33,925 bases of DNA from Candidatus Aminicenantota bacterium. GTDB taxonomy: Bacteria; Acidobacteriota; Aminicenantia; Aminicenantales; Aminicenantaceae. The notes beneath the pieces are model-generated. The model did no database searches, was not told where the DNA came from, and saw only the letters and a program-made list of their open reading frames with translations. The position numbers were made by a program, and so were the translations under genes. The DNA is taken from NCBI GenBank assembly GCA_021162615.1, contig JAGGYH010000141.1, forward strand, positions 1 to 33,925. The letters are read 5' to 3'. Shown here piece after piece: positions 2,960 to 33,925 of this stretch (position 1 is the stretch's first letter; each line of letters starts with the position of its first letter).

Positions 2960-4333
2960 ATGAATAAAACACTGATTAGAGGAGGCGATGTAGTTCTGGA
3001 TGGAGATGTCTTGAAGCAGGACATCCTTATTCAAGGAGAAAAAATAGCTGCTGTGGGAGACCTTTCCGGTGTTCAAGCTTCAAAAGAATACAGCGCCCAG
3101 GGACTTCTGGTGCTTCCAGGGGCTGTGGATACCCATGTGCATTTCAATGATGAGTTCATGGACACCAAGAGTGTCCATGACTATGAGACCGGCACTGTTG
3201 CCGCTGCATTTGGCGGAGTCACCACTGTGGTGGATTTTTCAAACCAGATTCCTGAAAAGCCTTTGATCCACACTCTGGAAAAGAAAAAAAAAGAAGCTGA
3301 GGGCAGAGCCATAGTAGACTGGGGAGTTCATCCGGTTATCACAAATGCCGCCTCAGAAATCCTCAAGGAAATCCCTTTGTTAGTGGAAAAAGGAGCGCCC
3401 ACCATAAAGTGCTATATGGTTTACAGAGAAGAAGGATTAATGGTCAAGGAGCACGACCTCAGGCGCATTATGGAACAGCTTAAAAGTGCCGGCGGCATGC
3501 TCATGGTTCATGCGGAAGATAACGACATCATTGAAAAAAACAGTTCTTCCCTGATAAAACAGGGGCTGACAGAGCCTATCTATCATGCAAAAAGCCGCCC
3601 TCCTGAAGCTGAAAATAAAGCCATAGAGAAATGCATTCATTTGGCTGAACAGACACAAGCCAGGATTTTTATTGTTCATTTGTCCACAGCCAAAGGAGTC
3701 CGGCTTATAGGTCAAGCTCGAAAAAAAGGGATTAACGTGTATGCAGAGACCTGCATCCATTATCTTTATTTTACAGAGAGCCAGCTTAAGCATAGGGACG
3801 GTATTAAATGGATCTGCTCTCCCCCCCTCCGAAGTAAATCAAACCAGGAAAAACTATGGGAGGGACTTCGGGACAAACGAATCTCTCTCGTAACCACTGA
3901 TGATGCGGCTTATTCCTGGGCCGCCAAGATGATGGGAGCTCACCGTTTTGATAAATGCCCAAATGGAATTCCAGGGATCGAAGTGAGACTTTCTCTCTTG
4001 TATTCAGAAGGAGTTCAAAAAGGGCGAATCTCTCTTAACCGCATGGTGGAGCTTATCTCAACTCAACCCGCTGAAATTTTCGGTATGTCTCCTCAAAAAG
4101 GGTCTCTCTCTCCCGGTGCTGATGCGGATATTGTTTTATTTGATCCCAAGAAAAAATGGACTATGGGAAGAGATTCCCTGCACATGGCTGCTGACTGGTC
4201 TGCGTATGAGGATATTGACATTACTGGAAAGATCGAGAAGGTCTTTTCCAGAGGAGAGCTGATTGTGGATGGCGAGCGGCTGCTGGCTCAAAAAGGGAGA
4301 GGAAAGTACATCAAAAGAAAATTAAAATGGTGA
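2960..4333 (+). CDS. Dihydropyrimidinase / D-hydantoinase
   Basis: A 457-residue cyclic amidohydrolase of the dihydropyrimidinase family. It opens the ring of dihydropyrimidines or 5-substituted hydantoins to N-carbamoyl amino acids in the cytoplasm. The binuclear metal ligands are all visible: H59 and H61 (DTHVHFND), K150 as the carboxylated Lys (TIKCYMVYREEGL), H184 (MVHAED), H240 (IVHLST) and D314 (TTDDAAYS). The last motif is usually TDHCPF in hydantoinases, so the H-C pair is replaced here and the substrate may differ. GGCGGAG lies before the ATG. The C-terminal codons KLKW overlap the left arm of a hairpin repeat. A hydantoin racemase homologue four genes downstream favours hydantoins over pyrimidines. 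Allantoinase is a less likely alternative. Confidence 0.85.
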   Translation: MNKTLIRGGDVVLDGDVLKQDILIQGEKIAAVGDLSGVQASKEYSAQGLLVLPGAVDTHVHFNDEFMDTKSVHDYETGTVAAAFGGVTTVVDFSNQIPEKPLIHTLEKKKKEAEGRAIVDWGVHPVITNAASEILKEIPLLVEKGAPTIKCYMVYREEGLMVKEHDLRRIMEQLKSAGGMLMVHAEDNDIIEKNSSSLIKQGLTEPIYHAKSRPPEAENKAIEKCIHLAEQTQARIFIVHLSTAKGVRLIGQARKKGINVYAETCIHYLYFTESQLKHRDGIKWICSPPLRSKSNQEKLWEGLRDKRISLVTTDDAAYSWAAKMMGAHRFDKCPNGIPGIEVRLSLLYSEGVQKGRISLNRMVELISTQPAEIFGMSPQKGSLSPGADADIVLFDPKKKWTMGRDSLHMAADWSAYEDIDITGKIEKVFSRGELIVDGERLLAQKGRGKYIKRKLKW

Positions 4334-4374
4334 TGAAATGAATAATAAAATCATCGCCATTTTTTTATGAATAG
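4324..4374 (+). repeat. Intercistronic hairpin carrying a repeat-family end (copy A)
   Basis: The arms AAAATGGTGATGA (4324-4336) and TCATCGCCATTTT (4351-4363) pair over 13 positions with one G-U, around a 14-nt loop. A run of seven T follows. It therefore resembles a weak intrinsic terminator or attenuator between hydantoinase and decarboxylase. The stretch 4338-4374 is 35/37 identical to copy B at 5758-5794. The end ATGAATAG plus GTCAGG matches the outward end of the dispersed TTAA-associated repeat family. The hydantoinase stop codon lies inside the left arm. Confidence 0.7.
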
Positions 4375-4384
4375 GTCAGGGTCA

Positions 4385-5752
4385 ATGAGTGACGAGAAAG
4401 AAAACAAAAAAACAGCAAGAATTTTTTCAGGAGCCTCTCCCGAAAAAGTAGCTCAAGACCTCTCCCCTCTTATTCATTTCAAGGAACAGGGAATGCCGCT
4501 TTCAGAACTGCGCGCCCTTTTGGAGAAAAGCCTGTTCCCCCATCTGATGAACTACGCTTCTCCCCAATTCCAATCCATGTTCAATACTTTTCCTGAACCC
4601 GGAGCTAAATTCGGGGCTGTGCTGGAAATTCAATACAATCAAGGAGTGACCAACTGGCAAGTCTCCCCCGGAGGCGCCATGCTGGAAGAGCTGTGCGCCA
4701 GAGCTTTATGCCATATGTTCGGCTTCCCCCCGGATTCAGATGCCACATTCATGTACTGCGGCACCTCTGCCAATCTGCAGGCTCTTTTTCTGGCGCTCCA
4801 CAGGCATGCCGAAAAACAGGGATTTGACCTCTGTCAAAAAGGAATTACCGGATTTGAAAATCCTGAAAAATTATTTCTGCTCTGCTCTGAAGATGCTCAC
4901 TTTTCTTTGAAACATGCGGTGCGCACTCTGGGTTTGGGTGAGAAAAGCCTAGTTCCTGTAAAAGTGGACCAAAACCGGAGAATGGATGTGAATCACTTTC
5001 AACAAAAAATTGATCAAACAGGAAGGAAAAATATCTTTGGCGTTGTGGCCACAGCAGGGACCACCTCCACTGGTTCTGTAGATCCTCTTTCTTTAATAGC
5101 TGAGATCTCTATAAATGAAAATATCTGGGTCCATATAGACGGGGCCTATGGACTGGCTTATTCTCTGGTTCCTGAGTGGGAGCCTCTTTTCCAAGGAAAA
5201 GAGCTGGCTGATTCTGTGTCCTGGGATCCTCATAAACAATTTGGAGTCCCTATCCCAAACTCTGTATTGTTTGTGAAAAATGAACAAGACTTTGAGCGAA
5301 TGACACTATACAGTGATTATTTCAATCCCTCACAGGACACACATCCCAATCCAGGCCTTAAATCCGCCCCATCAACCCGGCCTTTTTCTGCCCTTCCTCT
5401 CATAACATCTATACTGCATCAGGGCCTAAAAAAAATAAGACACAGGCTGCGTTCACCTCTGGAAGCTGTGAAAAAAGCAGCTGTACAGATCCAATCAGAG
5501 CCTGAATTGGAGCTCTGCCTCAAACCAGATACAGGAATCCTGTGCTTTCAGGTGGTACCCAAGAATATAAAGCCGGATAAAATCAATGACCTTCAGGAAA
5601 TGATATACAACGAAATCATGTCCAAAGGAGAGAACGCTCTTTCGAAAACAAAAATAGGAGATAAAACAGCACTCAGGCTGGTTGCTGTTTCTCCTGCCGT
5701 TCAAAGCAGGCACCTTCTGGAAACAGCTTATTTATGCCGCAGCATCGCTTAA
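4385..5752 (+). CDS. Group II PLP-dependent amino acid decarboxylase
   Basis: A pyridoxal-phosphate decarboxylase related to aromatic-L-amino-acid, glutamate and histidine decarboxylases, about 455 residues. Motifs, numbered from the upstream ATG at 4367: EDAHFS with H178 stacking on the PLP ring, HIDGAYG with D258 binding the pyridine nitrogen, and SWDPHK with K290 as the Schiff-base Lys. All key residues are present. I chose ATG 4385 rather than 4367 because the earlier ATG belongs to the repeat and has no ribosome-binding sequence, while 4385 follows AGGTCAGGG. If 4367 is used, six residues are added. Its place between a hydantoinase and an amino-acid symporter suggests it decarboxylates an amino acid (possibly aromatic) released from or related to the hydantoin. 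The substrate cannot be read from sequence. Confidence 0.85.
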   Translation: MSDEKENKKTARIFSGASPEKVAQDLSPLIHFKEQGMPLSELRALLEKSLFPHLMNYASPQFQSMFNTFPEPGAKFGAVLEIQYNQGVTNWQVSPGGAMLEELCARALCHMFGFPPDSDATFMYCGTSANLQALFLALHRHAEKQGFDLCQKGITGFENPEKLFLLCSEDAHFSLKHAVRTLGLGEKSLVPVKVDQNRRMDVNHFQQKIDQTGRKNIFGVVATAGTTSTGSVDPLSLIAEISINENIWVHIDGAYGLAYSLVPEWEPLFQGKELADSVSWDPHKQFGVPIPNSVLFVKNEQDFERMTLYSDYFNPSQDTHPNPGLKSAPSTRPFSALPLITSILHQGLKKIRHRLRSPLEAVKKAAVQIQSEPELELCLKPDTGILCFQVVPKNIKPDKINDLQEMIYNEIMSKGENALSKTKIGDKTALRLVAVSPAVQSRHLLETAYLCRSIA

Positions 5753-5757
5753 ACAAA

Positions 5758-5805
5758 ATGAATAATAAAATCGCCGCCATTTTTTTATGAATAGTAAATG
5801 TTAAA
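5758..5805 (+). repeat. Dispersed repeat end between decarboxylase and symporter (copy B)
   Basis: Positions 5758-5794 match copy A at 35 of 37 bases, including the A-rich left part, CGCC followed by seven T, and ATGAATAG. The end then diverges (TAAATGTTAA in place of GTCAGG), although TTAA is present at 5801 minus one. Copy B lacks the long left stem arm of copy A, so it would form only a short AAAATG/CATTTT stem. It fills nearly the whole intergenic gap. Confidence 0.7.
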
Positions 5806-7227
5806 GTGTTAGAGCCAATATTAAACACAGCTTCATTTATTGACCAGGTATTATGGGGGCCCTGGACCATAATTTTCATTGCAGGAGTGGCGGTCTTTTT
5901 AACCATTAAATCAAAAGCCTTTCAAATAACCCGGATAGGACTCATATTTAAAAACACATTCGGAAAAATATTTGAGACAACAAAAATCCAGCCCAAGGGA
6001 AGGATGACCCCTTTTCAGGCCACTTCCACAGCTTTAGCTTCCACTGTGGGGATGGGCAATATTGCCGGAGTGGCCACAGCTCTGTCCATCGGAGGACCGG
6101 GCGCCATATTCTGGATGTGGATTTTAGCTCTTTTCAGCATGATCATCAAAACCGCAGAAATAACTCTGGCTGTTCATTACAGAGAAGTGGGCAAAAACGG
6201 AATCCTTCACGGGGGACCTATGTACTATATGAGAAAGGGCCTGGGCTGGAAATCCCTGGCAAAGATATTTGCAGGGGGAGTTCTGGTTAATTCCCTGCTC
6301 AGCGCCACTCTGCTCCAGCAGCACACAGTAGGACGCGCTTTTCTCTCCAGCTATAAAATAAATCCCTACCTTACCACAGGCCTCATGGCTGCGATCACAG
6401 GATTTGTGGTGATCGGAGGCATTAGACGCATTGGCAGGGTTTGTGAGAGGCTGGTTCCTTTGATGTCTCTTGTTTATATTCTGGGAGGCGTGGCTGTCTT
6501 CCTTATCAATTATGCCAAAATACCCGAAGTGTTTGGAATGATCATCAAGTATGCCTTTTCTCCGGTCCCGGCAGTGGGAGGGATGGCAGGTGTGGCTGTA
6601 AGTGCCGCCCTTAAGGAAGGCATGGCTAAAGGCATGCTTTCCAATGAAGCTGGCCTGGGCACAGCTCCCATGGCTCATGCCACAGCAGACACAACGCATC
6701 CTTTTCAGCAGGGATTATGGGGGGCTTTTGAAACCTTTATCGATACCTTCATTATCTGCTCCATAACTTCATTTGCGGTTTTATCGACAGGACTCCTGGG
6801 AAGTGGTCAATCCGGTATAGAGCTGGTGATCGACTCATTCTCTTCAGTGTTTCCTTCTTGGCTGGCTTCAGCCGTCATATCCTTTTCCATACTGCTGTTT
6901 TGCTTGTCCACCCAGATCGGATTTTTTATCTATTATGAAACCTCTGTGGTCACTCTTTTTGGTAAAAAATCAATCCGCTATCTCAAATGGCTTTATTTTC
7001 TGCCCGGAGTGATCTTTGCTGGGGTCGCTCATGTGAACAAACTTTGGGTTTTTGCCAACATATCTGTGGGTGTGTGCGCCCTTCCCAATCTGGTTGCTCT
7101 TTTGGCTTTAAACGGCGCGTTCTTCAAGCTGATGAATGATTTCTTGGAGAAGCACAACAAGTACGCTGTTTTAAAGGTTGACTCTAACAGGAATTATGTT
7201 GTAAAAGCAAACAGAAGACAACAATAA
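5806..7227 (+). CDS. AGCS-family sodium:amino-acid symporter
   Basis: A 473-residue inner-membrane carrier of the alanine or glycine:cation symporter family, usually 440-550 residues with about eleven helices. Family motifs include ATSTALASTVGMGNIAGVATALSIGGPGA-type sequence near residues 70-95, HGGPMYYMRKGLG near 130, and NEAGLGTAPMAHATADTTHPFQQG near 280. It probably imports an amino acid, or a hydantoin-like derivative, with Na+. The start is a GTG at 5806, the only usable start after an in-frame TGA at 5788, and the Shine-Dalgarno is poor. Position in the cluster suggests it supplies substrate to the hydantoinase or decarboxylase. AGCS carriers normally move Ala or Gly, so hydantoin transport would be a new role and is only inferred. 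Confidence 0.9.
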   Translation: MLEPILNTASFIDQVLWGPWTIIFIAGVAVFLTIKSKAFQITRIGLIFKNTFGKIFETTKIQPKGRMTPFQATSTALASTVGMGNIAGVATALSIGGPGAIFWMWILALFSMIIKTAEITLAVHYREVGKNGILHGGPMYYMRKGLGWKSLAKIFAGGVLVNSLLSATLLQQHTVGRAFLSSYKINPYLTTGLMAAITGFVVIGGIRRIGRVCERLVPLMSLVYILGGVAVFLINYAKIPEVFGMIIKYAFSPVPAVGGMAGVAVSAALKEGMAKGMLSNEAGLGTAPMAHATADTTHPFQQGLWGAFETFIDTFIICSITSFAVLSTGLLGSGQSGIELVIDSFSSVFPSWLASAVISFSILLFCLSTQIGFFIYYETSVVTLFGKKSIRYLKWLYFLPGVIFAGVAHVNKLWVFANISVGVCALPNLVALLALNGAFFKLMNDFLEKHNKYAVLKVDSNRNYVVKANRRQQ

Positions 7228-7228
7228 G

Positions 7229-7250
7229 CCTGGATGATGAATATTTCAGG
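7229..7250 (+). repeat. Degenerate repeat end after the symporter gene (copy I)
   Basis: A 22-bp near-palindrome, starting CCTGGATG and ending TGAATATTTCAGG. The right part, read on the minus strand, is CCTGAAATATTCA, a 12/13 match to the right end of the element at 7794-8173. It starts one base after the symporter stop codon. With a G and C on either side it can form a short GCCTG/CAGGC hairpin. Confidence 0.5.
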
Positions 7251-7279
7251 CAAACAAGAACTGTCCAGGAGAAATAATC

Positions 7280-7768
7280 ATGGAATCTTATCAAGAAGGA
7301 TTGGAAATAGACCACCACTCATTTCAATTAGGCATGATCAACTGCTTTGTGGAAATGGTAGCTTGTGGAGTGAAAAAACTTGCGCTGAGTCCGCCTCTTA
7401 AGCCTGATGACTATGAAACCATAAAGAATTCATCAGAAACCATTGTGGATGCTTTTGGAGTGAAATCCTATCTTGAGCAGTCTCTGATTGTGACAGACCT
7501 CCAGTCTGAAGAATTTACACAAGGCAAGTATTCTATTCTCTATTACAAAGATGACTCTGTTCTTGAATCTTATTTGAATTTAAAAAAGAGAAAATCAGAA
7601 TTAGTCAAAAAAGGAAAATATGACCAAAAAGCGAGGAAGCAGATATCCCGGGAATTCATGAGTCTGTTGAGTTATCCGGAAAAAATTATCGAAGAAAAAC
7701 TTTCTCAAAAATCCCCCTCATCCCCTTACATGCTGGGCAATGACAACGAACAAAAAAAAGCAACATAA
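7280..7768 (+). CDS. Unknown protein in the hydantoin cluster
   Basis: A 162-residue protein I do not recognise. It has no signal peptide and no membrane segment. Residues 1-60 include a mixed, folded-looking stretch (HSFQLGMINCFVEMVACGVKKLALSPPL in pieces), with two Cys. The central part is acidic, and residues about 95-150 are rich in Lys and charged residues and look helical. AGGAGAAATA precedes the ATG, a good Shine-Dalgarno. It lies 52 bp after the symporter gene and in the same direction. The phrase ACGVKKLALSPPL and a conserved-looking DDYE suggest a cytoplasmic enzyme accessory or ligand-binding domain, but that is speculation. Presence between symporter and racemase genes makes a role in the same pathway plausible. 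Confidence 0.7.
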   Translation: MESYQEGLEIDHHSFQLGMINCFVEMVACGVKKLALSPPLKPDDYETIKNSSETIVDAFGVKSYLEQSLIVTDLQSEEFTQGKYSILYYKDDSVLESYLNLKKRKSELVKKGKYDQKARKQISREFMSLLSYPEKIIEEKLSQKSPSSPYMLGNDNEQKKAT

Positions 7769-7793
7769 TACTTATTCCCTATTTTTATATTAA

Positions 7794-8173
7794 CCTGGAT
7801 TATTCACGAGTCAAGGTTGAAGAGAGCTTACTGAAATTCAGGTGTGGCTGAAGCGACATTGAAGATTTAGCCTTCGGAGTGCTGTGTTTGAGGGAACTCA
7901 GCAAAGCTGTGCTGCGAGCATGTCTGACCCACGGACGGGGGGAGTTGCGCAGCAGCCGAGAACACAGCACAAAGAATGGCGTTAAAAATCTTTAGCGAGC
8001 ACAAGCCATATCTGAATTTCATTTTGGCTCGCCTCAATGGTAAAAAAATGGCGATTAAAATGAAAGTAAAAACTAACAAAAATATTTCAGTTGTCATTTT
8101 TATCAAAAACATGTATATCCTTGAAAGCAAAATAAAATAATGAACGTCGCCATTTTTTTATGAATAGTTCAGG
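7794..8173 (+). mobile_element. 380-bp MITE-like element flanked by TTAA
   Basis: The element starts CCTGGATTATTCAC and ends, on the minus strand, with CCTGAACTATTCAT, an imperfect inverted repeat (11/14). TTAA flanks it on both sides (7790-7793 and 8174-8177), as expected for a 4-bp target duplication. No coding region is credible inside. Two parts can be seen. Positions 7831 to about 8032 are a palindromic core shared with 33778-33925. Positions 8041-8160 are a 120-bp segment bounded by a perfect 13-bp inverted repeat, TAAAAAAATGGCG and its complement. Termini beginning CCT and the general form recall IS1380-type ends, but this is from memory and no transposase is present. It lies between the unknown gene and the racemase gene and leaves the racemase Shine-Dalgarno intact. 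Confidence 0.7.
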
Positions 8174-8187
8174 TTAAAGGAAGAACG

Positions 8188-8811
8188 ATGAAAATTCTGA
8201 TCATCAATCCGAACAGCGATTTGGAGATGACCCTTTCCATTCAGAAAACCGCTGAAAATTTCAGTAAAGGAAATTTTGAAGCAACATGCTTTCCCACTCC
8301 CGGAGCTCCAAAATTCATTGAAACCTATGAGGATCAGAAAAAAGCGGCCCCAGGGATGATCAAGCTGGTTAAAGAAAACCAAGCTCAATATGATAGCTTT
8401 GTGGTGGCCTGTCACTGCGATCCCAATTTAGAAATGATTAAAGGAATCACCAAAAAACCAGTGGTGGGAATCGGAGAAGCCTCCATGAAAATCGCCTCTA
8501 TGTTGGGGCAAAGATTCTCTGTGATACAAACCAGCGAATTTTCCATATCCATTAAGGAAAATCTAGTGAAAAAATACCGTCTTGAAGACTCCTTGGCTTC
8601 CATAAGAGCTCCGAAAAAAGAAATGGAAAACATGAGCGAATACCAAAAATATCTCCAGACGGCCCGGGCCGCTGTGGAAGAAGATGGGGCTGACGTCATT
8701 GTGCTGGGATGTGCGGGTATGACCGGATTGAACCGAAAAATAAAAAAAGAACTGGGGATACCTGTGCTGGATGGAGTGGAGTGCGGTCTGAGTGTTGCTG
8801 CCTCAACCTGA
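8188..8811 (+). CDS. Asp/Glu/hydantoin racemase family protein
   Basis: A 207-residue cofactor-independent racemase that would interconvert D- and L-5-substituted hydantoins. The N-terminus KILIINPNSD is typical of HyuE. The two-base mechanism needs paired Cys: C75 in VVACHCDPN and C175 in VLGCAGMTG occupy those places, and a further Cys, C77, is nearby. AAAGGAAG precedes the ATG. HyuE-type proteins are usually 230-250 residues; this one stops soon after GIPVLDGVECGLSVAAST, so the last helix appears short. It is the last gene of the cluster. Other members of the superfamily (aspartate, glutamate or maleate enzymes) remain possible, but a hydantoinase in the same operon supports the hydantoin role. 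Confidence 0.8.
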   Translation: MKILIINPNSDLEMTLSIQKTAENFSKGNFEATCFPTPGAPKFIETYEDQKKAAPGMIKLVKENQAQYDSFVVACHCDPNLEMIKGITKKPVVGIGEASMKIASMLGQRFSVIQTSEFSISIKENLVKKYRLEDSLASIRAPKKEMENMSEYQKYLQTARAAVEEDGADVIVLGCAGMTGLNRKIKKELGIPVLDGVECGLSVAAST

Positions 8812-15752: not shown

Positions 15753-15802
15753 CCTTATCTATTCATAGAAAAACGGCGATGATTGTTTTTGAATACTCCA
15801 GG
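15753..15802. repeat. 50-bp miniature element with both ends of the TTAA repeat family
   Basis: The left end is CCTTATCTATTCATAG, preceded by TTAA (15749-15752). The right end, on the minus strand, is CCTGGAGTATTCAAAAA, followed by TTAT. Between them is AACGGCGATGATTG, as in the other copies. It is thus an imperfect palindrome holding two family ends with almost nothing between. The left TTAA includes the stop codon of the HTH gene. As RNA it could fold into a hairpin at the end of that operon. Confidence 0.6.
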
Positions 15803-17673: not shown

Positions 17674-18522
17674 TTAACCCGACTTATTCATAAAAAACAG
17701 CGATGTATCCATTTTTCTTGAAATGATGGTTATTCCGCTTTGTTCTGCCAATTTTAGAGCTTTATCTTTATTCATGAAAAGCACTTTGTCCGCCTCAATA
17801 CACAGTGCGGAACATCCTGCCTTTTTAAGGTTCTGGACAGTCTTTAATCCTACAGCCGGCTGGTCGATCCTTGCATCTTGACGTGTACGGGCGACCTTGA
17901 CCACAACACACCCCTCTCCTCCCAAAAGCCCCCCCCTTATTATAGCCTCGTCCGTTCCTTCCATGGCTTCCACGGCAACTACGGCTTTGTCTTTTACTAT
18001 AACAGTCTGTCCTATCTCAAGATCAGCCATTTGTTTGGCAAGAGGCCATCCATAGTCAACATCCTCTTTTGCGGCTGGAGAAATTTTCCCTTTGGTTAGA
18101 ACACCCTGCTCACAGAAAAGATCCGACAAAAAACGGGAAGGATCCATAACCTCGATCCCCTGACTTTCAATATAGTTAAATACAGCTCTTGCGATTTCGT
18201 CTGGATTTCTGTTTTCAGTACCTTCCAGAAGAGAGGACAAAGGCAAGGGAAAGGTGTCCTTTGAGTACATATTTCTATGCCTGATTTTCCCAGCGAATAT
18301 TATCTGACGGACATCTTTCTTTTTAAAAAAAGAAACAAGCTTTAAAAAATCTTTGACCTCGAAACAAGCATATGAATCAGCCTGCTCTGTGATGCCTTCA
18401 TCAAATTCGTTCTGTATCCCCGCAACAATACAGGTATACCCCTCCTCTTTAGCCTTACGGCATATACACAGAGGAATTCCCCCTGAACCTGCGATAATTC
18501 CTAACCTTTTTTCTCTCTTCAC
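17674..18522 (-). CDS. lpxI: UDP-2,3-diacylglucosamine pyrophosphatase LpxI
   Basis: A 282-residue enzyme of lipid A synthesis. It cleaves UDP-2,3-diacylglucosamine to lipid X and UMP, the same step as LpxH but by an unrelated fold. The N-terminal GIIAGSGGIPL, the central VVAVEAMEGTDEAI and the Asp-containing RQDARIDQPAVGLKTV are LpxI signatures; the last holds the Asp known to be essential in the Caulobacter enzyme. It overlaps lpxA by 4 bp, as expected for coupled translation. The final residues, SLFFMNKSG, are encoded by the end of a dispersed repeat, and the TAA is the repeat's TTAA, so the original C-terminus may have been replaced. Confidence 0.9.
   Translation of the reverse strand: MKREKRLGIIAGSGGIPLCICRKAKEEGYTCIVAGIQNEFDEGITEQADSYACFEVKDFLKLVSFFKKKDVRQIIFAGKIRHRNMYSKDTFPLPLSSLLEGTENRNPDEIARAVFNYIESQGIEVMDPSRFLSDLFCEQGVLTKGKISPAAKEDVDYGWPLAKQMADLEIGQTVIVKDKAVVAVEAMEGTDEAIIRGGLLGGEGCVVVKVARTRQDARIDQPAVGLKTVQNLKKAGCSALCIEADKVLFMNKDKALKLAEQSGITIISRKMDTSLFFMNKSG
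17678..17702 (-). repeat. TTAA repeat-family end inside the 3' end of lpxI (copy E)
   Basis: TTAA (17674-17677) is followed by CCCGACTTATTCATAAAAAA and then CAGCGATG, the family pattern. Only one end is recognisable. It encodes the last residues and stop codon of LpxI on the minus strand, so the insertion must have been tolerated or the likeness is by chance. Confidence 0.55.
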
Positions 18523-22778: not shown

Positions 22779-22800
22779 CCAGGATTTTTCCCGAGTCAAG
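22779..22800 (+). repeat. Fragment of the MITE left end upstream of bamA
   Basis: CCAGGATTTTTCCCGAGTCAAG matches the left tip of the 7794 element (CCTGGATTATTCACGAGTCAAG) at 19 of 22 bases, and it is preceded by TTAA plus one A. Only this end is seen. On the minus strand it contains TTGACT, a -35-like hexamer facing bamA, though no good -10 was found 16-18 bp away. Confidence 0.45.
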
Positions 22801-29372: not shown

Positions 29373-31808
29373 ATGAAATCTGCTTCTCCATTTAAAGAAT
29401 TATCCAAGGAAAAACTTTTTAAAGAGATCGATCCTGATTCAATTCCTTTTGAGACCACAGATTCCTGTAAAAAATGCAAGGAGATCATCGGTCAAACAAG
29501 AGCATTGAAAGCCATCCAAACAGGACTTGATATAAAAAGCCGTGGATACAACATTTTTATAACCGGAATGGTCGGAACCGGAAGAACCACCACCATCAAA
29601 AAATTCCTGGGTAAAATCGAAAAAACCAAGGAAACTCCAGACGATGTGCTTTATGTGTATAATTTCAAATCTCCGGATGAACCATCTCTCATAATGCTCC
29701 CTGCTGGAAAAGGCAGGCGCCTCAGAGAGAGTATGGAGAATATGATCAACGTGCTGCAAAGAGATATTCCAGAGTTCCTAAAAAGTAAATATTATACAGA
29801 CAAAAAAAACAGCATAGTAGAGGGCCAGCAAAAGAAACAAAAAAAAGTCCTGCAGCAGTTTGAGGACGAAGTTTCCAAGGAAGGATTCACCGTCATCCAG
29901 GTACAGATCGGCACCTTTGTCAAACCTGACCTTATCCCTGTGATTGACAAAAAGCCTACTCCGTTCGACAGGCTAGCCCAGTTAGTCAAGGAAAACAAAT
30001 TTTCAGAACAGGAATTTAAGAAACTCAAGAAAAAATACGAAACCCTCACTGATCAGCTGGAAAAAGTGTTTAATGCACTTAAAAACATCGAAGAACAAAC
30101 CCATGAGATGTTAAAAAAATGGGATGAAAGATCTATCATCCCTCTAATAAAGCAAATTGTCTCTAAAGTCAGAAATAACTTCCATTCAGAAAAAGCAGAC
30201 CATTACCTAAACAATGTAGAAGCTGACCTCATCAAAAACATCAACCTTTTTAAAAGCCAAAAAGCACAGCAGAGAGAAAGACTGCCCATTGACCCATTTT
30301 CCAAATACAGAATCAATCTCATGGTCGATAATTCCGAATTAACAGGGGCTCCTATCATTATGGAAACAAATCCAAATTACGTGAACCTTTTCGGATCCGT
30401 TGAATCCAGCATGAACCGCCTCGGTTTACTGGAAACCGACTTTACGAAAATAAAAGCAGGCTCTCTTTTAAAAGCAAACGGAGGCTACATTGTTATCAAT
30501 GCCCTGGACGCTCTGCTGGAACCAGGTGTCTGGCCGTCTTTAAAAAGAACCCTAAAATACCAGAGCCTGGAAATACAGAACTATTCCTCCCTTTTCCTTT
30601 TTTCCGCAAAGGGGCCTAAACCAGAGCCTATAAAAATCAATGTCAAAGTCATATTTATCGGAGAATCTTATATCTATGACCTCCTTTATTATCAGGATGT
30701 AGATTTTAAGAAAATATTCAAAATCAAAGCCGAATTTGATTCAGAGACCAAATTGTCCAGCTCGACCATAAAAGAGTATTCTGATTTTGCAAAAAAAATA
30801 ATCGATGAAGACGGGCTAAAACCCATGGACAAATATGGAATGGCAGCCCTTATCGGAGAATGCGTCAGAATGGCAGGAAAAAAAGAAAAAGTATCCACCC
30901 GCTTCCATCATGTGGCTGATATCATAAGGGAGGCCAACTACTGGGCCAAAAAAAACAGATCAAAAATCATCAGCCGGAAACATATTGAAAAGTCCGTTAA
31001 GGAACGTTTTGAACGAGTCAGCCTTATAGAGGATAAGATCCAGGAAATGATTGAAGGAGGAACACTTATGATCGATACCACCGGATCAGTGGTGGGACAG
31101 GTCAACGGACTTTCTGTTTACAATCTGGGGCAGTCTTATTTTGGCAAGCCTACGCGCATCACAGCCACCACATCAGTAGGACGGGCCGGAGTGATCAATA
31201 TTGAGCGGGAATCAGACCTCAGCGGGAGAACCCATAATAAAGGCGTCCTGATTCTTGGAGGTTACCTCAGAAACAAATACGCTAAAAACAAGCCTTTTGC
31301 TCTTTCTGCAAGCCTTGCGTTCGAACAGTCTTACTCCGGAGTAGACGGAGACAGTGCATCTTCAACCGAAGTCTATGCCATCCTCTCAAGTCTCTCAAAC
31401 CTTCCCCTGAGACAGGACATTGCTGTGACCGGGTCTCTGAACCAAAAAGGTGAAATCCAGCCCATAGGCGCTGTCAATGAAAAGATAGAAGGCTTCTTTG
31501 AAGTATGCAAAGCAAAAAAACTCACAGGTAAACAGGGAGTGATCATTCCGCATAAAAACATAAAAAACCTTCTTCTGAGAAGAGACGTAGTGGAAGCTGT
31601 TGAACAGGGTAAATTCCATATCTATCCGGTCAGGACTATTGACGACGGCATAGAAATACTGACCGGCATAAAAGCCGGAAAGCAGAAGAAAGATGGAAGT
31701 TTTGAAAAGGATACAGTCAATTACCTTGTGGACAAGGAGCTGGAACGGCTGGCGGAAAGCTGGAAAAAATTTTCCGCCCCAGAGAAAAAAAACAGGGACG
31801 CTCCATAA
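29373..31808 (+). CDS. LonB-type ATP-dependent protease
   Basis: An 811-residue protease of the AAA_32/Lon-C group. ATG 29373 is chosen over an upstream TTG because AAAGGAAC lies before it. The N-terminal ATPase has IGQTRALKAIQTGLDIKSRGYN and GMVGTGRTTT (65-74); the usual Walker A Lys is Arg (R71), which I recall as common in this family. A coiled-coil insertion (about 150-290) follows. The protease domain near the C-terminus has Ser661 in GDSASSTEVYAIL and Lys704 in GAVNEKIEGF; the 43-residue spacing equals that of the E. coli Lon dyad. It lacks the classical Lon N-domain. It degrades misfolded or regulatory proteins in the cytosol. It is divergent from the GNAT-like gene and convergent with rluB. 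Confidence 0.9.
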   Translation: MKSASPFKELSKEKLFKEIDPDSIPFETTDSCKKCKEIIGQTRALKAIQTGLDIKSRGYNIFITGMVGTGRTTTIKKFLGKIEKTKETPDDVLYVYNFKSPDEPSLIMLPAGKGRRLRESMENMINVLQRDIPEFLKSKYYTDKKNSIVEGQQKKQKKVLQQFEDEVSKEGFTVIQVQIGTFVKPDLIPVIDKKPTPFDRLAQLVKENKFSEQEFKKLKKKYETLTDQLEKVFNALKNIEEQTHEMLKKWDERSIIPLIKQIVSKVRNNFHSEKADHYLNNVEADLIKNINLFKSQKAQQRERLPIDPFSKYRINLMVDNSELTGAPIIMETNPNYVNLFGSVESSMNRLGLLETDFTKIKAGSLLKANGGYIVINALDALLEPGVWPSLKRTLKYQSLEIQNYSSLFLFSAKGPKPEPIKINVKVIFIGESYIYDLLYYQDVDFKKIFKIKAEFDSETKLSSSTIKEYSDFAKKIIDEDGLKPMDKYGMAALIGECVRMAGKKEKVSTRFHHVADIIREANYWAKKNRSKIISRKHIEKSVKERFERVSLIEDKIQEMIEGGTLMIDTTGSVVGQVNGLSVYNLGQSYFGKPTRITATTSVGRAGVINIERESDLSGRTHNKGVLILGGYLRNKYAKNKPFALSASLAFEQSYSGVDGDSASSTEVYAILSSLSNLPLRQDIAVTGSLNQKGEIQPIGAVNEKIEGFFEVCKAKKLTGKQGVIIPHKNIKNLLLRRDVVEAVEQGKFHIYPVRTIDDGIEILTGIKAGKQKKDGSFEKDTVNYLVDKELERLAESWKKFSAPEKKNRDAP

Positions 31809-32057
31809 GGTGCCACCCTATATTTGGGAAGCCATAATAGAACTGAATCCGTTGGATATTAAAAAAATATTCTCAATTGTCCCCATCTGAAATATTTCCA
31901 TTTATCCTGACTTATTCATAAAAAACAGGTTAATACACCATCAAATCCTGCAGACGTAACCTCTTATATAGAGTTGGGACGAGGGGGGACAAGGGAAGCT
32001 TGCATTCTGGTCGTAAGCCATATACGTAAATACGGGGTTCTATGCTAGGGTGGCTCC
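31809..32057. repeat. Nested inverted repeats between convergent lon and rluB
   Basis: The gap of about 250 bp is framed by inverted copies GGTGCCACCCTA (31809-31820) and TAGGGTGGCTCC (32046-32057), each touching a stop codon of the flanking gene. Inside, TTGTCCCC (about 31878-31885) pairs with GGGGACAAG (about 31990-31998). Within that lies a TTAA-family end (31906-31929). No gene is visible. It may be a two-way terminator, a decayed mobile element, or one element inserted in another. Confidence 0.5.
31906..31929 (+). repeat. TTAA repeat-family end downstream of lon (copy F)
   Basis: CCTGACTTATTCATAAAAAA followed by CAGG and TTAA. It matches copy E closely (CCCGACTTATTCATAAAAAA). It begins CCTG, ends CAGG, and is flanked by TTAT and TTAA, so it could be a collapsed element of 24 bp or a solo end. 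Confidence 0.6.
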
Positions 32058-32764
32058 TAATGGGATGTCCCCAGCTTTTTGATTTCATCCGGCTTGAGAT
32101 ACCGCCATTTCCCTCTTTCCAGACTTCCTAATTTCAACCCGGCAAACTGGATCCTTTTCAATTTCACCACTTGATGCCCCACAGCCTGAAGTATTCTTCT
32201 TATCTCTCTTTTCCGGCCTTCATGAATCTCAATTCTTAAAAGACTCGAATCAGAGTCTCTTTTGATGATTTTGAGCTCATCCGGAGAGGTTTTCCGGTTA
32301 TCCAGATACACTCCTTCTGACAGTGTCTTTAAGTCCCTGCTCTGTATCCTGCCTTTTATTCTGACCATATAGACCTTTTTTATATTGTAACGGGGATGTA
32401 TGAGCTGGTGCGCAAGTTCCCCGTCATTAGTGAAAAGAAGAAGCCCCTCGCTGTTTAAATCAAGCCTTCCCACAGGAAACAAACGGACACCCAAATCAGG
32501 TAGAAGCTCCTTTACGGTGGGCCTTCCAAACGGATCATCCAACGTCACAACATAACCGGGTGGTTTGTTCAGGACCAAATAGTGCTTTGTTTCCGGCTTG
32601 ATTTCAACACCATTGACTTCCACTTTATCTTCTCTCGTATTGACCTGCGTTCCCAGTCTGGTCACTATTTCTCCATTGACCCGGACACTCCCCTGTTCGA
32701 TCAACAAGTCCGCTTTCCTCCTTGAGGTCACACCGGCTCTGGCCAGATATTTATTCAAACGCAT
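32057..32764 (-). CDS. 23S/16S rRNA pseudouridine synthase, RsuA/RluB family
   Basis: A 235-residue enzyme that isomerises uridine in rRNA. The N-terminal S4 RNA-binding domain (1-50) reads MRLNKYLARAGVTSRRKADLLI-like. The catalytic domain follows, with GRLDLNSEGLLLFTNDGEL and the catalytic Asp102. The later IHEGRKREIRRILQAVGH is the usual C-terminal motif. Size and layout match RluB/RsuA; RluE is less likely because an S4 domain is present. Which rRNA it modifies cannot be told. Its stop codon overlaps the inverted repeat behind lon. Confidence 0.92.
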   Translation of the reverse strand: MRLNKYLARAGVTSRRKADLLIEQGSVRVNGEIVTRLGTQVNTREDKVEVNGVEIKPETKHYLVLNKPPGYVVTLDDPFGRPTVKELLPDLGVRLFPVGRLDLNSEGLLLFTNDGELAHQLIHPRYNIKKVYMVRIKGRIQSRDLKTLSEGVYLDNRKTSPDELKIIKRDSDSSLLRIEIHEGRKREIRRILQAVGHQVVKLKRIQFAGLKLGSLERGKWRYLKPDEIKKLGTSH

Positions 32765-33675: not shown

Positions 33676-33727
33676 CTTACGAAATTCAGGTGTGGACGTA
33701 GCGACATTAAAGATTTAGCCTTCGGAT
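33676..33727 (+). repeat. Partial copy of the MITE core start
   Basis: This 52-bp stretch, from CTTACGAAATTCAGG to TTAGCCTTCGGA, repeats the beginning of the core that follows at 33775 with only two mismatches and one gap. It is preceded by TTAACC. The rest of the core is missing, so it is a broken tandem duplicate next to the next copy. Confidence 0.7.
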
Positions 33728-33740
33728 GCAGGAAGTCGAT

Positions 33741-33925
33741 CCTGGTTAATTGTCGAGTCGAGGTTGAAGAGAGCTTACTGAAATTCAGGTGTGGACGCAG
33801 CGACATTGAAGATTTAGCCTTCGGAGTGCTGTGTTTGAGGGAACTCGGCAAAGCCGAGCTGTGAGTATGTTTGACCCACGGACGGGGGGAGTTACGCAGC
33901 AGCCGAGAACACAGTGCGAAGAATG
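33741..33925 (+). mobile_element. Second copy of the MITE-like element, cut by the window end
   Basis: The tip CCTGGTTAATTGTCGAG resembles CCTGGATTATTCACGAG at 7794. From CGAGTC onward the two copies differ at about 14 of 171 positions (roughly 92% identity) up to the window end. The differences keep stems: CAGC-AAA-GCTG becomes CGGC-AAA-GCCG, and changes in AACACAGCAC give G-U pairs. TTAA is not seen at this left end, and the right end is outside the window. Confidence 0.7.

Follow-up and report, generated by a model that had tools for sequence, protein, structure and literature searches.

Repeats at the junctions of a hydantoin gene cluster in an Aminicenantes bacterium are very probably copies and remnants of a genome-wide IS1380-type MITE family

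Prokaryotic MITEs have been reviewed, and partial copies, intergenic placement and transcripts that form hairpins are mentioned for them (PMC10969869), with no mention of IS1380 in that review. The IS1380 family is the prokaryotic outgroup for the eukaryotic piggyBac superfamily (PMC10140906, PMC10813416), in which the target duplication is a 4-bp TTAA, and variants, CTAA and TAAA among them, also occur (PMC10813416). IS1247, which is a member of the IS1380 family, has a 16/13-bp IR and a 5-bp DR (PMC3281130). A limited literature search yielded no publication about MITEs of the Aminicenantes, which is weak evidence.

The DNA analysed here is a stretch of 33,925 nucleotides (the window), which corresponds to contig C77 of a host genome of 2.85 Mb in 146 contigs, 93% complete and with assembly breaks at repeats. 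Among named genomes, its closest relatives are MAGs of Candidatus Aminicenantes. It contains a hydantoin gene cluster with a repeat in each of its four spacers (Table 1). We conclude that these repeats are very probably copies and remnants of a genome-wide MITE family of the IS1380 type, present as ordinary insertions in an older cluster.

The repeats at the four junctions

The preliminary description of this DNA had claimed that a related repeat sits at every junction of the cluster, always in one orientation, and this was borne out, in that all four spacers hold a family member on the + strand. When the window was searched for TTTTTATGAATARNTCAGG with up to three mismatches, six matches were found as compared to 0.18 expected, three of which lie within the hydantoin cluster. 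The positions 4338 and 5758, originally taken as the repeats, are those of an internal ATGAATA, and the conserved tips (TTTTTTTATGAATAGGTCAGG) are found at 4367-4380 and 5787-5800; the repeat placed at 8147 represents no more than the right end of an element of 380 bp (copy D) starting at 7794.

Table 1. Features of the hydantoin cluster and of its junctions (positions in the window)
Feature	Coordinates	Strand	Remarks
D-hydantoinase/dihydropyrimidinase gene	2960..4333	+	TIGR02033, 482 bits, above cut-off
Terminator-like hairpin and T-run	4324..4371	+	copy A with its upstream flank, 13-bp stem
Copy A, shortened MITE	4332..4380	+	right end intact, ATCATCGCCATTTTTTTATGAATAGGTCAGG
PLP-dependent decarboxylase gene	4385..5752	+	PF00282, 9e-44; probable start
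Copy B, right-end fragment, degenerate tip	5744..5800	+	right-end score 32.8 bits at 5769-5800
Sodium:alanine symporter-family gene	5806..7227	+	PF01235, 1e-111
Copy C, 22-bp remnant, left end fused to right end	7229..7250	+	CCTGGATGATGAATATTTCAGG
Conserved 162-aa protein, family unknown	7280..7768	+	61-72% identity in four relatives
Left target duplication of copy D	7790..7793	.	exact TTAA/TTAA
Copy D, full 380-bp MITE	7794..8173	+	left end CCTGGATTATTCACGAG, right end TTTTTTTATGAATAGTTCAGG
Right target duplication of copy D	8174..8177	.	exact TTAA/TTAA
Asp/Glu/hydantoin racemase gene	8188..8811	+	PF01177, 3e-46

The four copies differ in their state of preservation. The right end of copy A scores 50.5 bits (4349-4380), and its left end is degenerate or lost (ATGGTGATGAA being similar to CTGGATGATGAA), with an uncertain left limit. 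The tip of copy B reads GTAAATG in place of GGTCAGG, and neither copy A nor copy B has a clear left end. A search for the 22-mer of copy C with at most one mismatch gave three matches in the genome, copy C included, and none with the reversed control; the other two are likewise 22-bp end-to-end copies, one of them with a mismatch. Copy D is one of the seven copies of the 380-bp length class and has full-length relatives elsewhere in the genome, at 80-88% identity. No recognisable target duplication was seen at the flanks of copies A, B and C.

The match of 35 out of 37 bases between copies A and B was reproduced. These two are shortened right ends of one subtype, while copy D is a full copy of another. 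The nearest copy to B is A (two differences in 37 bases, as compared to four for the next nearest), and both carry AAAATC. This likeness, together with the occupation of four spacers in a row (P about 0.05, see below), would fit with local copying, in which one entrant repeat seeded the other spacers via gene conversion or local transposition. Against this, five copies elsewhere in the genome are as close to A as B is, the closest copy to D lies on another contig, and copy C is of the different, end-to-end form that has its like elsewhere. For this reason, the earlier suggestion that the repeats had spread by copying within the cluster is not supported as a single process; the additional likeness of A and B leaves a small opening for local copying, which we regard as very unlikely.

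The open reading frame of the decarboxylase opens at 4367, inside copy A. Since alignments with the proteins of relatives begin at residue 11-17, the true start is probably at 4385. The 162-aa protein had no match in Pfam or NCBIfam; it is located between the symporter and the racemase in four relatives and is missing at that place in others. A search of the window in Rfam gave no match, and a search for tandem repeats gave none that was relevant.

A genome-wide family with IS1380-type ends

The exact sequence TTTTTATGAATA occurs 183 times in the 2.85 Mb of the host genome, as compared to 6 times for the reversed control, and the 26-bp right end, with up to two mismatches, occurs 158 times, as compared to 0 for the control. 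With weight matrices for both ends, 241 elements or ends were located in 1.43 Mb; the reversed-sequence controls gave 4 vs. 164 real right ends and 8 vs. 154 real left ends. These 241 are distributed among spacers (180), the inside of called genes (18) and the regions outside the last called gene at either end of a stretch (43), and the density of the family is 1.30 per kb of spacer vs. 0.015 per kb of gene. The statistics come from 1.43 Mb of stretches (half of the genome), which were partly picked for holding members, so that occupancy is slightly biased upward; genes were called with a simple codon-score script and no standard gene finder.

Outside the cluster, the window holds further members at 15753-15802, 17678-17709 (overlapping the 3' end of the gene at 17674-18522), 22779-22799, 31906-31937 and 33676-33925; the last of these, at the contig end, consists of two partial left-module copies in tandem. 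Many contigs of the host genome and of genome G004 end about 110-200 bp inside a family copy, which indicates that the family breaks the assembly. Members were also seen in the spacers around genes that, from their translations by eye, are malate dehydrogenase-like, isocitrate dehydrogenase-like and aconitase-like (L094:3306-8453). A 35-bp inverted repeat pair in the window (31786-31820 and 32046-32080, 74% complementary, 225 bp apart) lies between convergent genes and is apparently unrelated to the MITE family.

The ends of the family are inverted with respect to each other, the left one being CCTGGATTATTCAC… and the right one …TTATGAATAGGTCAGG, the complement of which is CCTGACCTATTCAT. The left end takes the form CCTGGATTATTCACAAGTCGAGG or CCTGGATGATGAACAAG, and the right end the form ATCGCCATTTTTTTATGAATAGGTCAGG. 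The elements are small and non-coding, from 22 to about 400 bp, and fall into a 253-bp class (16 copies, median identity 86%), a 380-bp class (7 copies, median identity 83%), a 146-bp class with two right-type ends that are near-perfectly inverted, and short forms that grade continuously down to 22 bp. The 253-bp and 380-bp classes have the right-hand module in common and differ in their left modules, and therefore the family is a mosaic.

An exact 4-bp target duplication was observed in 26 of the 71 paired copies, as compared to 10.6 expected by shuffling (maximum of 20 in 2000 shuffles). The duplicated tetramers are mostly TTAA, and also ATAA, CTAA, TAAA, TTCA and ATAG; no comparable signal for a 2-bp or 3-bp duplication was seen in the flanks of paired elements. 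The family thus shows the features of MITEs, namely terminal inverted repeats, many and mainly intergenic copies, a target duplication and an empty site in a relative. A TA dinucleotide is frequent beside the tips, as would be found if this were a TA-duplicating MITE similar to IS630/RUP, yet the duplication is of 4 bp and not 2, the sole IS630-type match in the host genome is a broken fragment that lacks the ends of the family, and the other four genomes searched, which hold 19-111 copies of the family, gave no IS630-type match; such an origin is extremely improbable. We give next to no probability to REP/BIME-type palindromes spread by a Y1 (RAYT-like) transposase: Y1_Tnp genes do occur in the host genome (two) and in relatives, and the repeats are short, extragenic and able to form hairpins, but the ends of the family are long and defined, 4 bp are duplicated at the target, the size classes reach 380 bp, and the Y1_Tnp loci have no properly paired family ends.

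The parentage of the IS1380-type MITE family is indicated by an intact IS1380-family element of 1626 bp in the genome of a relative from the same family (L228:1377-3002), whose transposase (PF13701, E = 5e-157, 446 aa) is intact. Its ends are CCTGAATAATTCATAAAAAA and CCTGATTTATTCATAAATT; the MITE right end shares 18 of 21 bases with the former (shuffle P = 5e-6) and 15 of 17 with the latter. The flanks of this intact element, TAAA/TTTA, give no exact 4-bp duplication, and the genome that carries it holds 0 MITE copies by the 26-bp pattern. For IS1380 members other than IS1247, a duplication of 4 bp is known.

In the host genome, contig C15 carries two IS1380 copies (L067:6249-6480 and L067 about 3640-3900, minus strand), both of which retain only the first 26 residues of the transposase, with 77-81% identity, and have one internal deletion in common. 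One of them is flanked by CTAA on either side and carries CCTGGATTATTCAC at its left; the other terminates in ATGAATAGATCAGG|TTAA. These deleted copies are intermediate between an insertion sequence and a MITE; apart from them, the interiors of the MITEs are unrelated to IS1380. No intact IS1380 transposase was found in the assembled host genome, where the Pfam profile also gave no match and which is 93% complete and breaks at repeats, and an unassembled intact copy is possible. DDE_Tnp_1 genes were considered as the transposase of the family and rejected, their loci having no properly paired family ends. Outward-facing pairs of ends at a distance of 1.6-3 kb were likewise rejected as autonomous copies; they enclose ordinary genes, which on reading of their sequences are, for example, aminotransferase/cysteine desulfurase-like and enolase-like.

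The ends, the 4-bp duplication and the internally deleted copies lead us to infer that the family was mobilised by IS1380. An element of this kind has no gene of its own, and its ends would be recognised and moved in trans, with an IS1380 transposase as the putative mover. It inserts at TTAA-like sites, with duplication of 4 bp, and would survive where it is least harmful, which is between genes. The short copies would derive from internal deletion and decay, and the family may now be inactive in the host genome.

Age, orientation and folding of the junction repeats

The cluster was compared with those of eight other genomes (L131/L147, L132/L149 and L134/L150, one genome per pair, and L133, L135, L136, L148 and L151). 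The order of its genes is kept in all eight; the small protein is missing in some of them, and the decarboxylase was not found in one. In seven of the eight no family sequence is present in the cluster, and the only one that has any is L131, which belongs to the same genus (69-81% protein identity). In L131 the hydantoinase-decarboxylase junction (L131:4320-4345) has neither a spacer nor copy A, the stop and start overlapping in an ATGA, and the junction between the small protein and the racemase can be aligned across the position of copy D, where the 380 bp are lacking, and thus represents an empty site. The junction between the decarboxylase and the symporter contains a diverged right end of 12.0 bits (L131:5744-5775), a score reached by none of 20,000 shuffles of the spacer. 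Copies A, C and D have no counterpart in any of the eight relatives.

The empty A and D junctions in L131 indicate that the cluster is older than these two copies, and the cluster predates most of its repeats. Copy B probably predates the divergence of the two species. Copy A would have removed the stop-start overlap that is seen in L131, as a secondary effect of its insertion. It had been proposed that the repeats mark how the cluster was assembled; given that the cluster is kept in eight relatives, seven without the repeat and one with a single diverged copy, this proposal is abandoned. Orthologous clusters that lack the repeats, which the preliminary description had named as a test of a special role, were found in part at the closest range, where three of the four junctions are without the repeat, and at all junctions in the more remote relatives. 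By the 26-bp pattern, 24 copies were counted in the same-genus genome, 111, 50 and 19 in genomes of one other genus, and about 0 in the rest.

Among same-direction spacers in the sample, 89 of 726 hold a family member (12%; when only spacers of 20 bp or more are considered, 23%). A run of at least four occupied spacers somewhere in the 1.43-Mb sample arose in 4.5-4.9% of occupancy permutations, and roughly 10% is obtained for the whole genome by extrapolation from half of it; the fact that all four point in one direction adds, by arithmetic, a factor of about 0.2 given a 2:1 bias. Four adjacent occupied spacers are therefore mildly unusual and not decisive. The earlier opinion, by which chance insertion was unlikely to fill four spacers out of four, holds only mildly (P about 0.05), against a background occupancy of 12% for all same-direction spacers and 23% for those of 20 bp or more. 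As for an equal density in all spacers, which had been named as evidence against a special pattern, most spacers are empty, although members are common in spacers throughout the genome.

The orientation of the copies was counted in stretches L061-L100, L118 and L155-L194 and in the window. In same-direction spacers, copies that bear a right end lie with transcription in a ratio of 43:20 (p = 0.005), which becomes 40:20 (p = 0.013) when the hydantoin cluster is left out, and solitary left ends show no bias (15:15). Fold energy did not differ between copies lying with and against transcription (p = 0.51), and thus gives no support to an explanation of the bias by terminators. The orientation bias is the remaining puzzle, in that simple insertion and loss do not explain 43:20. 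That selection has produced it, with MITE right ends acting as intercistronic attenuators throughout the genome and the hydantoin cluster as the densest case, is in our opinion quite doubtful.

The suggestion that the repeats act as attenuation or processing hairpins is tenable for two of the junctions only. The hairpin of copy A (-14.5 kcal/mol, z = -4.3) was not equalled by any shuffle, and copy D gives a hairpin with a long loop at 8040-8159 (-21.2 kcal/mol, z = -3.3); both are candidate intrinsic terminators, with a predicted stable GC-containing stem directly before a U-run. Copies B and C lack this arrangement: copy B, at 5758, forms no hairpin (z = +2.2 vs. shuffles), and copy C, at 7229, folds weakly and is not convincingly set apart from its shuffles (z = -1.1). 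The hairpins of copies A and D may cut readthrough, which would be a secondary effect, and copy A could lower the expression of the decarboxylase. A stronger proposal is that MITE copies in the operon were co-opted and retained as attenuators, their hairpin and U-run setting the relative mRNA levels of hydantoinase, decarboxylase, symporter and racemase. The folding of A and D, much better than that of shuffles and with a T-run after the stem, the 43:20 orientation and the counterpart of copy B in the sister genome speak for it. On the other hand, B does not fold and C does so weakly, fold energy is equal in both orientations, and A, C and D are absent from all relatives; we consider co-option unlikely. 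Ordinary insertion of an IS1380-type MITE family remains the preferred reading, so that a striking local pattern has an ordinary genome-wide cause.

Comparison with known systems

With Correia, ERIC, Chunjie and BOX/RUP/SPRITE elements the present family has in common that it is small and non-coding, with inverted ends and many intergenic copies (PMC10969869), as well as many partial copies and transcripts that form hairpins (PMC10969869). It differs from them in its ends and in its parent transposase, and, unlike those MITEs, it includes 22-bp end-to-end forms and mosaics in which varied left modules are joined to one right module.

With respect to the IS1380 family, the MITE ends, of the CCTG(A/G)..TTATTCAT type, match those of the intact member, and a short direct target duplication is made. 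The differences are that the MITE repeats are without a transposase and that their duplication is of 4 bp and TTAA-preferring. An uncultured phylum, the Aminicenantes, thereby gains an IS1380-linked MITE family. The 4-bp TTAA duplication is also a likeness to piggyBac, where the comparison is by target preference only and no membership is claimed; on the bacterial side of piggyBac/IS1380, a TTAA-preferring family of this kind could provide a natural record of how targets are chosen.
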